This document shows, one piece after another, positions 52,751-61,687 of a DNA stretch of 64,000 nucleotides; within the stretch, counting starts at the first letter, position 1; every line of letters begins with the position of its first letter. The stretch lies in contig NZ_CP108381.1 in NCBI RefSeq assembly GCF_035956715.1, positions 1,426,001 through 1,490,000 on the forward strand, written 5' to 3'. Position numbers and translations under genes: made by a program. This DNA comes from Nocardia sp. NBC_01329. Its GTDB lineage: Bacteria; Actinomycetota; Actinomycetes; Mycobacteriales; Mycobacteriaceae. The notes beneath the pieces are model-generated. The model was not told the DNA's origin and ran no database searches. It saw only the letters and a program-made list of their open reading frames with translations.

Positions 52751-53449
52751 ATGACTCCGCTGGCCGGGGTTCTGTGGGATATGGACGGCACCCTCCTCGA
52801 TTCGGAGAAGCTCTGGGATGTCGGTGTCCGGGAGCTGGCCCGGGAACTCGGCCGGGAGATGACCCAGGAGATCCGGCACGCGCTGATCGGCGCTTCCGGG
52901 GCTAACGCGCTGCGGATCATGTTCACCGAGCTCGGCCTGCCGCCGGAGCCCGCGGCTGTGGCGGAGGCCGGACGTTTTCTCGAAGAGCGTGTCACCGAAC
53001 TCATGACCGGGCCGATCCCGTGGCGGCCGGGCGCGGTGGAGGCGCTGGAGATGGTGCGCGCCGCGGGTCTGCCGTGTGCGCTGGTGACCAATACCAAGCG
53101 GTCGCTGACCGAACTGGCGCTGGAGACACTGGGTCGCGACCGGTTCGACGTATCGGTCTGTGGTGACGAGGTGCGGCACGGAAAGCCCGATCCGGCTGTC
53201 TATCTCCGGGCGGCGGAGCTGCTCGGCCTCGACCCCGGCGATTGCGTGGCCGTGGAGGATTCGGTCACCGGCGTGGCCGCCGCGGCGGCCGCGGGCTGCG
53301 GGGTGCTGGTGGTGCCGTGTGAGATCCCGGTGCCGGTTCACCTGTCCCGGGTGCATCGCGAGAGCCTGATCGGATTGTCGCGAAACGACCTCGACGAGGT
53401 GCTGCGCACCGGTCGCGCGGTCGCGGCGAGCGGTCCTGCCGCGACCTGA
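52751..53449 (+). CDS. HAD-family phosphatase (beta-phosphoglucomutase-like group)
   Basis: A 232-aa HAD hydrolase. Motif I DMDGTLLDSE near residue 10, motif II LVTNTKRSL, motif III lysine in GKPDPAVYL, and motif IV VAVEDSVTGVAAA are all present, with a helical cap between I and II. The substrate is probably a small phosphorylated metabolite. I choose the ATG at 52751 with AAAGGG 8 bases upstream; the preceding in-frame 44 residues are not conserved. It follows the kinase gene by 128 bp. Confidence 0.9.
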   Translation: MTPLAGVLWDMDGTLLDSEKLWDVGVRELARELGREMTQEIRHALIGASGANALRIMFTELGLPPEPAAVAEAGRFLEERVTELMTGPIPWRPGAVEALEMVRAAGLPCALVTNTKRSLTELALETLGRDRFDVSVCGDEVRHGKPDPAVYLRAAELLGLDPGDCVAVEDSVTGVAAAAAAGCGVLVVPCEIPVPVHLSRVHRESLIGLSRNDLDEVLRTGRAVAASGPAAT

Positions 53450-53473
53450 TTAGTCTCGGCCCGCCCGAACGGT

Positions 53474-53500
53474 GTCTTGTATCAACAAGACCGAACGGTC
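53474..53500 (+). promoter_or_regulatory. Overlapping palindromes (operator) upstream of the oxygenase-methyltransferase-acyltransferase operon
   Basis: GTCTTGT-ATCA-ACAAGAC (53474-53491) is a perfect 7+7 inverted repeat and GACCG-AA-CGGTC (53489-53500) is a second, overlapping one. They lie 70-100 bp upstream of the ATG at 53572. The site is typical of a dimeric repressor; no regulator gene is adjacent. Confidence 0.6.
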
Positions 53501-53571
53501 CGTGACCGGACTCACCTGCTATCTCAGGCAAACGCCGGGCGAGTCGCAGACAGTCCGATAACAATATCGCT

Positions 53572-54432
53572 ATGGCCGCCACGGTGACCTTGGACGAAAT
53601 CGTTGACACTTCCCGCTACCCGCTCGCCGAGCCCGGTGCTCCCGGGTGGCGCGCCGCGGTCGCGGCGGCGCGGGCCGATCTCGCCGAGGACGGCTGCACT
53701 GTCCTGCGCGAGTTCATCCGGCCCGAACTGCACGGGATGCTCGCGGAACAGGGTGCGCGGATGGCACCGCACGCCTATTACCGCACCGAACAGGTCAATG
53801 CCTACAACATTCCGCTCGACAGCGAATTACCCGACGGTCATCCCGGCCGGATCGTCTTCGAACGCGGTAATGCCTTCGTCCCGCGCGACCGGATCCCTGC
53901 CGGCGCGCTCATTCAGCGCCTCTACACCGACGACCTCTTCCAGCGGTTCCTCGCCGACTGCTTCGGCCGGGACCGGCTGCACGAATTCGCCGACCCGCTG
54001 GCCGGACTGGTGCTCAATGTGGTCTCACCGGGGCAATCGCACCCCTGGCATTTCGATACCAACGAATTCACCGTCAGCATGCTCACCGCCACCCCGGAAT
54101 CGGGTGGTGTCTTCGAATACTGCCCGGGCATCCGCTCCCCGCAGGCCGAGAACCTGGCTGATGTGCACGCGGTGCTGACCGGGTCGGGGGAGGGCCTGGT
54201 CCGGCGGCTGGCACTGCGCCCCGGCGATCTGCAACTGTTCCAGGGCCGCTTCTCCCTGCACCGGGTCTCGCCGGTGGAAGGCGCGGCCGCGCGGCATACG
54301 GCGATCTTCGCCTACAGCGACCGTCCCGGTGTCATCGGCACCGTGGAACGCACCCGTCAATTGTTCGGACGGGTGCTCACCGATCATCACGCGGCGGCCG
54401 ATGCCGTCCGGGGTGACCGGCTGCTCGATTGA
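53572..54432 (+). CDS. Fe(II)/2-oxoglutarate-dependent oxygenase-like protein
   Basis: A 286-aa protein with a double-stranded beta-helix. The iron triad is His-x-Asp in HPWHFDTNEF (about residue 161-163) and a distal His in FSLHRVSPV, followed by Arg in RHTAIFAYSD for 2-oxoglutarate. Because the Asp is present it should be a hydroxylase rather than a halogenase. I relate it to the HalD/ArpA-like group loosely; the substrate is unknown. No clear ribosome binding site precedes the ATG, so the mRNA may be leaderless or nearly so. First gene of a three-gene operon. Confidence 0.82.
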   Translation: MAATVTLDEIVDTSRYPLAEPGAPGWRAAVAAARADLAEDGCTVLREFIRPELHGMLAEQGARMAPHAYYRTEQVNAYNIPLDSELPDGHPGRIVFERGNAFVPRDRIPAGALIQRLYTDDLFQRFLADCFGRDRLHEFADPLAGLVLNVVSPGQSHPWHFDTNEFTVSMLTATPESGGVFEYCPGIRSPQAENLADVHAVLTGSGEGLVRRLALRPGDLQLFQGRFSLHRVSPVEGAAARHTAIFAYSDRPGVIGTVERTRQLFGRVLTDHHAAADAVRGDRLLD

Positions 54433-54478
54433 TCGAGAACGCGATCGAGCGGATACAGCCCGAGGAGAGGAACACGAC

Positions 54479-55300
54479 GTGCCAGTTCCGTTGCACACCA
54501 CCGGGAAAGCGTCCTTCGACGATATCTACTCGAGGCCCGATCCTCGCGACTACTACGCACGGATGTCGGAGCTGGACTACCGCATCCCGGAACTGGCGAA
54601 ACCGCATCTGCGCCGGCAGATCGGCGAATACCGCGCCGCCACCGGCGCGGCGCCCGATGTGCTGGATATCGGCTGCTCCTACGGGGTGAACGCGGCCCTG
54701 CTGCGACTGGACACCAGCCTCGCCGAACTGGCCGGATCATACGCGGACCCGGATACCGCCACCGACGAGCTCATCGCCCGGGACCGGGCCCGGGTCGCCG
54801 GGGCGGACACCTTGCCGGGGGTGCGTTTCATCGGTATGGACGCCTCCGCGCCCGCACTGGAGTACGCGCGCGCGGCCGGGTTGCTCGATGCCGTGGTACA
54901 TGCCGACCTCGAGGCCACCGACCCCACCGACGCGCAGCGCGCGGTGCTGGCCTCGGCCGATCTGGTCGTCTCGACCGGCTGTATCGGATACGTCACCGAG
55001 AAGACGATCGTGCGCATCGCCACGGCCCATCCCGAACGGCGCCCCTGGATGGCCCACTTCGTACTGCGTATGTACGGTTTCGGACCCATCGAGGCAGACC
55101 TGGCGGCGCTGGGCTACCGCACCGAGCGGATACCCGGCGAATTCGCCCAGCGCCGCTTCGCCTCGGCCGCCGAACGCGAGCAGGTGCTCGGTACGCTGGC
55201 AAGTAACGGGATCGATACGACCGGGCTGGAGGACGAGGGTTGGCTGTATGCCGATCTCTATGTGTCCCGGCCGCTTTCGTCGCCCATATCCACCGAATAG
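54479..55300 (+). CDS. Class I SAM-dependent methyltransferase-like protein
   Basis: A 273-aa protein with a Rossmann methyltransferase core: motif I VLDIGCSYGVNAALLR near residue 60, an acidic GMDAS strand, and DLVVSTGCIGYVT as a motif IV region. The N-terminal segment (FDDIYSRPDPRDYYARMSEL) and the insert with ELIARDRARV may form the acceptor pocket. I infer a small-molecule N- or O-methyltransferase because of its operon partners. GTG at 54479 follows GAGAGG by 8 bases. It lies 46 bp after the oxygenase gene and 46 bp before the acyltransferase gene. Confidence 0.8.
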   Translation: MPVPLHTTGKASFDDIYSRPDPRDYYARMSELDYRIPELAKPHLRRQIGEYRAATGAAPDVLDIGCSYGVNAALLRLDTSLAELAGSYADPDTATDELIARDRARVAGADTLPGVRFIGMDASAPALEYARAAGLLDAVVHADLEATDPTDAQRAVLASADLVVSTGCIGYVTEKTIVRIATAHPERRPWMAHFVLRMYGFGPIEADLAALGYRTERIPGEFAQRRFASAAEREQVLGTLASNGIDTTGLEDEGWLYADLYVSRPLSSPISTE

Positions 55301-55346
55301 CCCGCCGGGCGCGACCCGACGACCGACGACCGAACCGGAGAACGAC

Positions 55347-57161
55347 TTGACCGAACCGACCTTCGCCGCCGAGGACCAACTCCCGAGGGTCCCGCTGCCG
55401 ACCCTCGAGGACAGCTGCGCGCGTTTCGTCCAGTGGTGTACGCCCCTGCTCACCGCCGAGCAGCTGGCCACCACCGAGGACGCTGTCGCGGATCTGCTGC
55501 GTACCGGCGGCCCCGGCCGCGTGCTGCACGACGCGTTGCGTGAATACGACCGGACCCCGGGCGTGGGCAGCTGGCTCGACCGGTTCTGGCCGTCGCGCTA
55601 TCTGGGCCGGCGGGACCGGATCGCGTTGAACGCCAACTTCTTCTTCCTCTTCCGCGACGACACCGTGCTGGCGCGTTCGACCGCGACCGATCAGGCCGAG
55701 CGGGCCGCCGCCCTGGTCTCCGCCGCGGTCGACTACAAACTGGCACTGGACCGGGAGGAGATCCCGCCGGTCACTCAGCGGGGTCAGCGCCTGTCCATGT
55801 GGCAGAACAAGTACCTGTTCTCCGAGACCCGGATCCCCGGGACCGAACAGGACACCGTGCGGGTGCCCTACAGCGATGCAGAGCCGGGGCCGTCCACCGC
55901 CCGGCACATCCTCGTGCTGCACCGCGGGTGGCTGTTCCGCCTGGAGGTCGTCGCACCCGAGGGCGATCCGTACGCCTTCGAGGATGTGACCGCCGGTCTG
56001 CGCGGCATCCTGAAATCCGCCACCGAACCGGCCCCGGCCGGTACCTCGGTCGGGCAGCTGACCACCGGGGCGCGCGGCGACTGGGCCCGGTCCCGCGCCC
56101 GGTTGCTCGGCGATCCGCACAACGCCGCGGCACTCGACACGATCGAAACCGCACTGTTCGCCGTCTGCCTCGAGGATTTCGCCCCACGCGACGATCTCCA
56201 CGCCGCCGACACCCTGCTGCACGGGAACAGCGCCAACCGGTGGTTCGACAAATCCGTCTCGTTCATCGTTTTCGCCGACGGCCGGACCGGGATCAATGTC
56301 GAACACTGCGGACTGGACGGCACCACGATCCTGTCCTTCGTCGACACCCTGCTCGAGACATCCGTCGGTGAACACACCGAGCGGTCCGGCGCACGGGGGC
56401 AGGGACTGCCGCCGGCCGAACAGATCGAGTTCCGGCTGGACGCGGATCAGCAGGCCGACGTGGTCGCGGCAGGCGCGGCATTCGCGCAGTACGCCGCCGA
56501 CAACGCCACCACCACGGTGTCGTTCGAGGATTTCGGAACCGCCCGCGCCAAACAGCTCGGTATCTCCCCGGACGCGTTCGCCCAGCTGAGCTATCAGCTC
56601 GCGCACCGGCGCAGCAAAGGCCTCACCGGCGCCACCTACGAATCCATCGCCACCAGGCAGTACCGCAACGGCCGTACCGAGGCGATGCGCGTGGTGACCC
56701 CGGAGATGGTGACCTTCGCCGATACCCTGCAGGACCCGGCGGCCGATACCGCCACGAAACTGGCCGCCGCGCGCGCCGCCGCCGCCGCGCATGTGGAACG
56801 GGCCAAACAGTGCCAGTCGGGAGCGGCGCCCGAACAGCACCTGTGGGAACTCGAATGGATCCAGCGGCGGCGCGGCGCCGAACTGGGGGTCACCGAGCCG
56901 ATCCCGCTGTACACCAGCCCGGGCTGGACCGTCATGCGTGACGATTACCTCAGCACCAGCTCCGCACCGTCGGTGAATATCAGCTATTTCGGTTTCGGGT
57001 CCACCAGCCCGAAATGCATCGGTATCGCCTACGTCCTGCTGCCCGACCGGTGGAACCTGTATCTGGCCACTCCGGCTGCCGTCGCCGACGAGATGCACGC
57101 CTTCGCCGGCCACCTGCGCACCGCGGTCGCCGAACTGGAGGCCCTGCTCTCCGAGGCCTGA
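55347..57161 (+). CDS. Choline/carnitine O-acyltransferase family protein
   Basis: A 604-aa protein of the choline/carnitine acyltransferase fold, unusual in bacteria. The N-terminal family motif is LPRVPLPTLEDSCARFVQW, the catalytic His is in NVEHCGLDGTTIL, and the C-terminal ISYFGFGSTSPKCIGIAYVL matches the family's STSxx region; an R-x-E-A segment TEAMRVVT is also present. It should transfer an acyl group from acyl-CoA to a hydroxyl of a quaternary amine-like acceptor. TTG at 55347 has GGAG 6 bases upstream. An in-frame extension over the preceding gene from 54888 is a shadow. A strong terminator follows. Confidence 0.88.
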   Translation: MTEPTFAAEDQLPRVPLPTLEDSCARFVQWCTPLLTAEQLATTEDAVADLLRTGGPGRVLHDALREYDRTPGVGSWLDRFWPSRYLGRRDRIALNANFFFLFRDDTVLARSTATDQAERAAALVSAAVDYKLALDREEIPPVTQRGQRLSMWQNKYLFSETRIPGTEQDTVRVPYSDAEPGPSTARHILVLHRGWLFRLEVVAPEGDPYAFEDVTAGLRGILKSATEPAPAGTSVGQLTTGARGDWARSRARLLGDPHNAAALDTIETALFAVCLEDFAPRDDLHAADTLLHGNSANRWFDKSVSFIVFADGRTGINVEHCGLDGTTILSFVDTLLETSVGEHTERSGARGQGLPPAEQIEFRLDADQQADVVAAGAAFAQYAADNATTTVSFEDFGTARAKQLGISPDAFAQLSYQLAHRRSKGLTGATYESIATRQYRNGRTEAMRVVTPEMVTFADTLQDPAADTATKLAAARAAAAAHVERAKQCQSGAAPEQHLWELEWIQRRRGAELGVTEPIPLYTSPGWTVMRDDYLSTSSAPSVNISYFGFGSTSPKCIGIAYVLLPDRWNLYLATPAAVADEMHAFAGHLRTAVAELEALLSEA

Positions 57162-57177
57162 TCCGTACCCGCGTTCG

Positions 57178-57221
57178 CCGCCCGAGTGCGCGCCACGACA
57201 CCGTGGCGCCCACTCGGGCGG
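57178..57221 (+). terminator. Terminator of the three-gene cassette
   Basis: A 20-bp arm (57178-57197) and its inverted copy (57202-57221) with one mismatch and a 4-base loop ACAC. It follows the acyltransferase stop by 16 bp and precedes hisE by 35 bp. Confidence 0.82.
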
Positions 57222-57256
57222 AGTCGTGCCACGGGAGTCTGAAACAATGACCTGCC

Positions 57257-57520
57257 GTGAAGACTTTCGAGGCCCTGTTCGCCGAGCTCCAGGATCGCGC
57301 AACCACCCGTCCCGCCGGGTCGGGTACCGTCGCCGCACTGGACGCGGGCGTCCATACCCAGGGCAAGAAGGTGCTGGAGGAGGCCGGTGAGGTGTGGCTG
57401 GCCGCCGAACACGAAAGCGACGAGGCGCTCGCCGAGGAGATCTCACAGCTGCTCTATTGGGTGCAAGTCCTCATGGTGGGTCGCGGGTTGCGGCTGGAGG
57501 ACGTCTACCGACATCTGTAG
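57257..57520 (+). CDS. hisE: Phosphoribosyl-ATP pyrophosphohydrolase HisE
   Basis: An 87-aa single-domain HisE (MazG-like fold), second step of histidine biosynthesis. The conserved [20 protein letters not shown] and [12 protein letters not shown], then [16 protein letters not shown] carry the acidic metal-binding residues. The start is GTG at 57257. hisG follows after 37 bp, the usual actinobacterial order. Confidence 0.96.
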
Positions 57521-60824: not shown

Positions 60825-60876
60825 GCCACCCCACCCCACCCCGCCGCCGGCCCGCGCCCATCCGCCATCAACGCAT

Positions 60877-61140
60877 GGCCGGAGCGAATGCGGAGGTACG
60901 CCGAGGGTTGGGGGTGTGTGTTCGTGTGTTGTGTGGGGCTGGATGCGGACGCGCACGGCCGGAGCGAATGCGGAGGTACGCCGAGGGTTGGGGGTGTGTG
61001 TTCGTGTGTTGTGTGGGGCTGCTTGCGGACGCGCATGGCCGGAGCGAATGCGGAGGTACGCCGAGGGTTGGGGGTGTGTGTTCGTGTGTTGTGTGGGGCT
61101 GGATGCGGACGCGCACGGCCGGAGCGAATGCGGAGGTACG
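60877..61140. repeat. 80-bp tandem repeat array (3.3 copies)
   Basis: Units start with GGCCGGAGCGAATGCGGAGG at 60877, 60957, 61037 and a partial 24-bp copy at 61117-61140. Units 1 and 3 are identical; unit 2 differs at about three positions near its end (GGATG against GCTTG, and T for C just before the next unit). Within each unit lies a GT-rich stretch (GTGTGTGTTCGTGTGTTGTG). The period is not a multiple of three, yet no stop codon falls in any frame, so all six frames look open. It fills the space between the convergent trmI and lipoprotein genes. Confidence 0.92.
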
Positions 61141-61141
61141 C

Positions 61142-61687
61142 CTAGGCCGGGGAGCAGGGGATCTGGGCGAACCCGAACAGTACGCAGGCGCTGGCGTCGG
61201 ACAGTTTCCAGGTGCCGTCTTCGTGCTCCCAGGTCAGCGGCATGGGCGGTGCGCTCTGGCCGGTGGGGCTGGTGATGGTGGTCTGGCCGGTGGCGGTATC
61301 GCCGTCGACTGTGATCTCGCCGACCTGGAAGGTGATTCCGCGGTAGGTCTGGAGTGCGGCGTTGAGTTGTTCGAGGATCCCCCGCCGGTCCTCGCCGTCG
61401 TCGATCAGCTTCACCTTCTCGTCGACCGGGACATCCGGGTTTGTGATCTGTTCCAGGTTGGACTGTAGGCTCTGCGCGGTGGGCGCCTCCGCGGTATCCC
61501 CGTGGTCGTGATCATGCGCTGGAGCGCTGGTGGTGGCCGCGGCGCTGCTGGGGGCGGCGCTGCTCGCGGCGGTCCCGGTGCCGTCTTCGTCGGACCCGCA
61601 GGCCGTCAGGCCCAGCGCCAGTGCGGCGGCTGCGACCGTGGCCGCAGCGACGCGGGACAGCCGCAGTGTCCGTGCGGGAAGTTGCAT
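61142..61687 (-). CDS. MTB12-like lipoprotein
   Basis: A 181-aa exported lipoprotein: signal peptide with lipobox LTACGS (lipidated Cys near residue 30), a Ser/Ala/Thr-rich linker with a His/Asp cluster HDHDHGD, and a C-terminal domain (about 75-181) resembling the mycobacterial low-molecular-weight antigen MTB12 (ITNPDVPVDEKVKLIDDG, then WEHEDGTWKLSDASACVLFG). Two cysteines near the end may form a disulfide. An IdeR-like box lies about 50 bp before the ATG. The TAG stop touches the tandem repeat array. Confidence 0.82.
   Translation of the reverse strand: MQLPARTLRLSRVAAATVAAAALALGLTACGSDEDGTGTAASSAAPSSAAATTSAPAHDHDHGDTAEAPTAQSLQSNLEQITNPDVPVDEKVKLIDDGEDRRGILEQLNAALQTYRGITFQVGEITVDGDTATGQTTITSPTGQSAPPMPLTWEHEDGTWKLSDASACVLFGFAQIPCSPA

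Follow-up and report, generated by a model that had tools for sequence, protein, structure and literature searches.

We analysed a 64,000-nucleotide stretch of Nocardia sp. NBC_01329 (hereafter the window; contig NZ_CP108381.1, positions 1,426,001 to 1,490,000), which contains a cassette of three co-directional genes on the forward strand. The first gene, OX (53572-54432, 286 amino acids), encodes a BesD/HalD-family Fe(II)/2-oxoglutarate oxygenase of the hydroxylase type. The second, MT (54479-55300, GTG start, 273 amino acids), encodes a class I S-adenosylmethionine (SAM)-dependent methyltransferase, and the third, CAT (55347-57161, TTG start, 604 amino acids), a carnitine/choline acyltransferase-family O-acyltransferase with an H320/D324 catalytic pair. 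Genes for metH, a kinase and a HAD protein lie upstream, and hisE and hisG lie downstream. An initial annotation, made from the sequence by a model, had called these open reading frames (ORFs) at the same coordinates and placed them between the metH side and hisE-hisG, and we confirmed both points. The even 46-bp spacing that it described holds in the window, where the gaps between OX and MT (54433-54478) and between MT and CAT (55301-55346) are exactly 46 bp each, but it is not general. Over 78 loci, counting the window copy and leaving out a fused locus (L066) and L009 (where the alignment overran the stop and gave an artefactual value), the approximate OX-MT gap ranged from 6 to 89 bp and the MT-CAT gap from -4 to 216 bp; 28 of 78 MT-CAT pairs overlapped by 4 bp.

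OX, MT and CAT form one heritable unit that recurs in unrelated neighbourhoods and is conserved well beyond what the initial annotation could have known. Among 80 related loci (66 from Nocardia and 14 from 7 other genera), OX adjoins CAT in 78 and MT does so in 77. L069 and L072 could not be scored for OX or MT, their contigs stopping 78-101 bp upstream of CAT, and a Saccharomonospora locus (L080) has an OX-CAT pair without MT. Co-occurrence elsewhere had been proposed as a test of the initial annotation, with rare adjacency as an outcome that would count against it; the adjacency counts refute such rarity. In a sample of 394 genomes of the class, the OX subfamily (>440 bits) and the CAT subfamily (>500 bits) were found in an identical set of 40 genomes, the latter count leaving out two diverged CATs (G139, G776) and a fragment (G210). 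MT was found in 38 of these 40, and all three genes were on one contig, as judged by coordinates, in 37. The genome samples and the named loci overlap (e.g. G834/L068, G752/L063) and are not phylogenetically independent.

MT is the dispensable and variable member of the cassette. Besides L080, two genomes (G755, G788) have the OX-CAT pair without its MT; a distant MT sits on a different contig. G555, counted as having MT, carries MT+CAT and OX+CAT on separate contigs, the latter with an MT remnant, and the MT match is split in two pieces in G653, G701, G745 and G827. MT and CAT are fused in a single frame of 902 amino acids in Streptomyces specialis (L066; 1 of 78 pairs). A second, diverged cassette in a Nocardia genome (G446; L087, 3961-7487) likewise consists of OX and an MT-CAT fusion, of 888 amino acids. 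Members found alone in the class sample were distant MT in nine further genomes, distant OX homologues in five (G715, G735, G767, G815, G823) and diverged CAT in two (G139, G776; about 300 bits). Divergence of the three proteins was correlated (r 0.80-0.89, 17 sequences, 0 of 2000 permutations as high), a value uncorrected for species history.

The acyltransferase family PF00755 was matched in 147 of 148 Nocardia genomes, the one miss being an assembly of 1340 contigs. It was also matched in 30 of the 35 genomes in the family of G834, taken to be a Frankia alni metagenome-assembled genome (that of L068). In broader samples it was scarce: 5 of 396 genomes in a phylum sample, of which three are Nocardia and one is matched by a fragment, and 42 of 394 genomes of the class sample, the majority from the Frankia family, in keeping with the earlier remark that carnitine-type acyltransferases are uncommon in bacteria. 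It was absent from all 20 same-family non-Nocardia genomes listed in the class sample, and CAT had zero matches in the plasmid collection searched. A literature search covering titles and abstract openings found no description of this cassette.

In Nocardia, HAD lies upstream of the cassette in 64 of 66 loci (the exceptions being L010, on a short contig, and L065). Downstream, hisE follows in 59 of these loci, and the remaining seven end within 0.4 kb of the CAT match. OX, MT and CAT were absent from the hisG locus in all 13 same-family relatives compared. Because HAD abuts hisE in 8 of these 13, with no room for the cassette, it was probably inserted between HAD and hisE in Nocardia; no HAD was detected in the hisG stretch of the other 5. 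Outside Nocardia, loci of Actinomadura share neighbours with one another, as do those of Actinokineospora and two Streptomyces, and across genera the only recurring ones are generic ATP-binding cassette (ABC) ATPases plus a few single weak cases. Since neighbours are kept only within genera, no fourth conserved gene need be invoked.

CAT is homologous to CrAT, CPT2, COT and ChAT and matches PF00755 at full length (profile positions 1-573 of 574; 517.4 bits against a cut-off of 22.3; 6.6e-155). The catalytic histidine reported in the initial annotation is H320, within NVEHCGLDGTT, and it aligns with CrAT H343, described as the catalytic residue in PMC11852590. Further CrAT equivalents are D324 (E347), Y431 (Y452), T444 (T465), A446 (T467), Q497 (R518), S536/S538 (S552/S554), F548 (M564) and F550 (F566). 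All of these residues, and the S536-T537-S538 (STS) motif, are invariant among 26 CATs of an alignment thinned for redundancy (26 of 78 full-length CATs; the corresponding sets for OX and MT hold 44 of 78 and 39 of 75). Because its catalytic residues are so conserved, CAT is predicted to be an active acyltransferase, and not the catalytically dead enzyme that had been named as grounds for rejection.

The acceptor pocket, in contrast, departs from that of a carnitine acyltransferase sensu stricto. In CrAT, R518 binds the carnitine carboxylate, M564 acts as the acyl gate and F566 contacts the trimethylammonium group. As the carboxylate-binding arginine is replaced by the invariant Q497, the predicted acceptor is unlike carnitine at the carboxylate, and carnitine itself is disfavoured. 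The invariant F548 at the acyl gate suggests short acyl groups, and CAT probably uses short acyl-CoA. The second cassette (L087), three CAT paralogues (L086, L088, L089) and a distant one (L090) retain the Arg518 equivalent, which makes Gln look like a substitution that became fixed in the main cassette. These residues bear directly on de novo carnitine synthesis, in which MT would make gamma-butyrobetaine from gamma-aminobutyric acid, OX would hydroxylate it and CAT would be a true carnitine acetyltransferase. The gene set would suffice for such a route, CAT retains the Y452, T465 and F566 equivalents, and the fused second cassette has the arginine; we nevertheless consider it very improbable given the invariant Gln in the 26 cassette CATs and the family of OX, which matches HalD and shows no TauD/BBOX-type profile (such as PF02668, TauD-like/gamma-butyrobetaine hydroxylase) among its three listed Pfam families at E up to 1.

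The paralogues at L086, L088 and L089 (Nocardia genomes G435, G464 and G423) are about 50% identical to the cassette CAT and have no OX or MT beside them. In 3 of 3 copies Glu replaces the catalytic His (NIEESGLDGTT). The L086 copy neighbours a major facilitator superfamily (MFS) transporter, a class I/II aminotransferase and a 2-hydroxyacid dehydrogenase.

OX scored above the cut-off for PF23169, the Pfam HalD family (8.8e-15; 55.2 bits, cut-off 26), over residues 103-249 only. Its AlphaFold2 (AF2) model (pLDDT 90.5) was led in Foldseek ranks 1-8 by HalB, HalD, BesD and the lysine hydroxylase 7JSD (E 5.8e-16 to 2.8e-14). The HxD...H motif noted earlier is intact (H160-x-D162...H230) and is joined by R241. 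D162 is invariant in the 44 aligned OX sequences, where a halogenase would have HxG, and this triad points to OX hydroxylating rather than halogenating; in PMC13244439, turning a related hydroxylase into a halogenase involved replacing the iron-ligand carboxylate. The same paper describes a lysine oxygenase in which the amino group is ringed by D239, D143 and E123 and the carboxylate by R77, H137 and W241. E123 and D143 align with L143 and T163 of OX, in a weak alignment that leaves D239 unmapped, which hints that OX binds an amine other than an acid-held primary ammonium. Cassette OX has an invariant H157 where BesD has its carboxylate-binding His, but the residue is not invariant in the homologues L110-L113, L131 and L132, so we did not use it as an argument.

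We viewed 11 genomic contexts of OX homologues outside the cassette (L110-L113, L131-L136, L139), and 6 of the 11, a raw count with no background rate, carry betaine-transport, MttB-family, DddP-like or dimethylargininase-like genes. In Caballeronia SBC2 (L110, OX 51% identical) the OX homologue, a DddP-like M24 hydrolase, OpuAC/ProX, a ProW-like permease and ProV lie in a row. The OX homologue is followed by a DddP-like M24 protein in Pseudomonas MPC6 (L111, 41%) and in G815 (L134, 46%), the M24 proteins of all three loci scoring only about half the DddP cut-off. An MttB-family protein is found near the OX homologue in Mesorhizobium WSM1497 (L113, 35%), together with a GbcA-like Rieske oxygenase, and in Rhodobacteraceae M382 (L132, 33%). 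In G767 (L135, 35%) a dimethylargininase-like gene, above the Pfam ADI and DDAH_eukar cut-offs and below NCBIfam's, lies directly upstream. Some members of the wider OX family thus seem to encounter onium or N-methylated amino compounds, and such neighbours lend indirect support to a betaine-like substrate.

The pairing of an OX homologue with a DddP-like M24 gene recurs on a Caballeronia plasmid, on a Pseudomonas plasmid and in an actinobacterial genome, and the two genes may form a catabolic pair acting on an onium solute. A catabolic or buffering role could also be imagined for the cassette itself, with CAT running in reverse and the unit detoxifying or salvaging an imported onium solute. 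Several proteobacterial OX homologues do look catabolic by their neighbours, but the cassette comes without a transporter or downstream degradative gene, none being common across genera, and the only betaine-type ABC transporter noticed downstream among the 14 non-Nocardia loci was an OpuAC-type system behind the Herbihabitans cassette (L081). We regard this role as quite improbable.

The assignment of MT as a methyltransferase was borne out by its predicted fold, though its Pfam methyltransferase scores fall just under the cut-offs. The AF2 model (pLDDT 88.4) matched class I methyltransferases in VIA with Z up to 12.8, the fold looked for in a small-molecule N-methyltransferase, and no significant PDB sequence match was found (best E 0.24). 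An assignment of substrate by fold was rejected: C-, N-, O- and S-methyltransferases were mixed at close scores in both Foldseek and VIA, and because VIA Z values were tied across many functions we made no call. MmtN, at rank 5 of the Foldseek list (TM-score about 0.43) and not among 50 VIA rows, was given no weight. Outside the cassette we viewed 17 contexts of MT homologues (L106-L109, L114-L119, L124-L130). EutA-like and DoeA-like neighbours at L109, L126 and L127 were far under cut-off and were not used. At L119 (G744) a distant MT homologue lies beside ORFs that by eye resemble a pyridoxal phosphate (PLP)-dependent cysteine-synthase-type enzyme, an MFS transporter and an ornithine-carbamoyltransferase-like protein.

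The ties in the VIA list, whose top matches include C- and other small-molecule methyltransferases, leave room for MT to methylate oxygen or carbon, for instance as a carboxyl methyl ester, in which case the product would be a neutral or lipophilic acyl amino-acid signal and not a betaine. A rhizobial MT homologue (L127) near an ATP-grasp ligase of the L-amino-acid ligase type fits such chemistry. CAT, however, keeps the aromatic F550 at the position of CrAT F566, and onium, N-methyl or DddP-like genes accompany OX homologues in the 6 contexts described above; we judge oxygen or carbon methylation unlikely.

We favour, with moderate confidence, a reading in which the operon encodes all the steps of a small-molecule pathway, starting from an amino-acid-derived zwitterion and ending in a short-chain O-acyl ester of its hydroxylated, methylated form. 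OX, whose fold is that of free-amino-acid oxygenases and whose triad is HxD and not HxG, would hydroxylate the zwitterion. MT would methylate it, most likely on nitrogen, before or after hydroxylation, and CAT would esterify the hydroxyl so formed with a short acyl group, acetyl or propionyl, taken from acyl-CoA. Such a pathway would end in an N-methylated amino acid or betaine bearing an O-acyl-hydroxy group, built like acetylcarnitine but distinct from carnitine. The initial annotation had pictured an acylated carnitine- or choline-like hydroxy-betaine made by hydroxylation, N-methylation and then O-acylation. The onium-type substrate draws indirect support from the OX-homologue neighbours, while carnitine as acceptor sits poorly with the Arg518 to Gln change (26 of 26); the fixed order is unsupported, and MT is absent between OX and CAT in G755, G788 and L080. 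A betaine ester stays plausible as the product, and the case for it has improved.

Several observations weigh against the favoured pathway. Because MT is missing beside OX-CAT in the same three cases, methylation may be optional. The MT-homologue contexts are mixed, with a betaine-type transporter near 1 of 17 (L118), a lower bound since neighbours were mostly read by eye. Onium-type neighbours are absent in 5 of the 11 OX-homologue contexts, namely L112 (Pantoea), L131 (Klebsiella), L133, L136 and L139; Pantoea and Klebsiella account for 70 and 7 of the 119 plasmid records with an OX match, and one context of each was viewed, neither with onium genes. Across the 11 contexts the OX homologues are only 30-51% identical to OX, and the MttB, GbcA, DddP and dimethylargininase matches all fall under NCBIfam cut-offs. 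Finally, with Gln at the position of CrAT R518, a carnitine-like carboxylate would not be held in the usual way.

Upstream of OX lies a Crp-type inverted repeat, GTGA-N6-TCAC (53502-53515, forward strand), centred 63 bp before the start codon. Counting the window, 53 of 66 Nocardia upstream regions have the repeat at positions -62 to -65 relative to the ATG, its inner bases varying, and it was found in 0.2% of mononucleotide-shuffled regions; as the species are related, the conservation is not independent evidence. The motif alone is unremarkable, with two sites in the whole window against 0.96 expected. No copy was detected in the other 13 Nocardia regions (L014 and 12 of the L044-L060 types) or in 11 of 12 non-Nocardia cassettes, L071 having one at a different distance. 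The repeat is likely a site for a Crp-family regulator. A putative promoter (53536-53571, forward strand) follows, with a CCGGGCG(T/A)GTC block about 35 bp before the ATG and AACAATAT just before it. The exact GGGCGTGTC occurs at -35 to -37 in 58 of 66 Nocardia regions, and the window is one base off (GGGCGAGTC). The conserved -35 block and the AACAAT just before the ATG suggest a short-leader or leaderless promoter with the Crp-family site upstream.

A perfect 18-bp palindrome (GTCTTGT-ATCA-ACAAGAC, 53474-53491; 0.08 matches expected per shuffled window at ≤2 mismatches) had been taken, as part of 53474-53500, for the operator of the cassette. We rejected this candidate, as its right arm recurs only in some close relatives and its left arm is unconserved in the aligned Nocardia regions (an alignment, also used for the promoter block, that omits the window (L001) and L005); not being kept in other Nocardia, it is probably not the operator. 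Between CAT and hisE, a GC hairpin at about 57178-57221 (-49.7 kcal/mol for 57165-57235, z -5.4) is likely the transcript 3' end. The strong terminator described there earlier stands as a very stable hairpin, but one without a U-tract, and a terminator scan of 53300-57400 lists no canonical terminator. Of 60 loci, window copy included, 28 have a stem of at least 8 pairs on the 3' side of CAT. Elsewhere in the window, 3' of hisG, an 80-bp tandem repeat occupies 60872-61146 (3.4 copies, 95% match).

A more far-reaching possibility, which we put forward tentatively, is that this operon, core in Nocardia and near-core in the Frankia family, is a prokaryotic pathway of the acetylcholine or acetylcarnitine kind that builds its own betaine, in which hydroxylation by a BesD-family enzyme and acetylation by a Gln-variant CAT of eukaryotic type would come under Crp-type control. 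An operon near-universal in Nocardia and present in a majority of the Frankia family, with its acyltransferase lacking in the 20 other same-family genomes, should make a metabolite that is kept for a reason and may mark these bacteria chemically. If the proposal is true, opportunistic pathogens of one genus and root-nodule symbionts of one family would have a previously unseen metabolite in common. Since esters of the acetylcarnitine or acetylcholine kind are active on animal hosts, a role of the product towards the host is worth considering.

Each member of the cassette can be set against characterized enzymes. MT shares the Rossmann class I fold of SgMT, BamL/BpumL and MmtN but has no significant sequence match in the PDB. 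OX is alike in fold to 7JSD and HalA/HalB/HalD/BesD (Foldseek ranks 1-41, E 5.8e-16 to 2.4e-10, TM-score 0.54-0.73) and has the HxD...H...R residues of the 7JSD lysine hydroxylase, whose family acts on free amino acids; it differs in being just 15-19% identical to BesD-family structures in the Foldseek rows and, in the weak alignment described above, in having L143/T163 at E123/D143. The operon would also broaden what is known of the BesD hydroxylase family. CAT has in common with the eukaryotic CrAT, ChAT and CPT2 full-length homology, the catalytic His, the STS motif and the Tyr452, Thr465 and Phe566 equivalents, and differs from them in being bacterial, in its three-gene operon and in the Arg518 to Gln, Thr467 to Ala and Met564 to Phe changes. 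The cassette would supply bacterial members of this acyltransferase family with an altered acceptor pocket.

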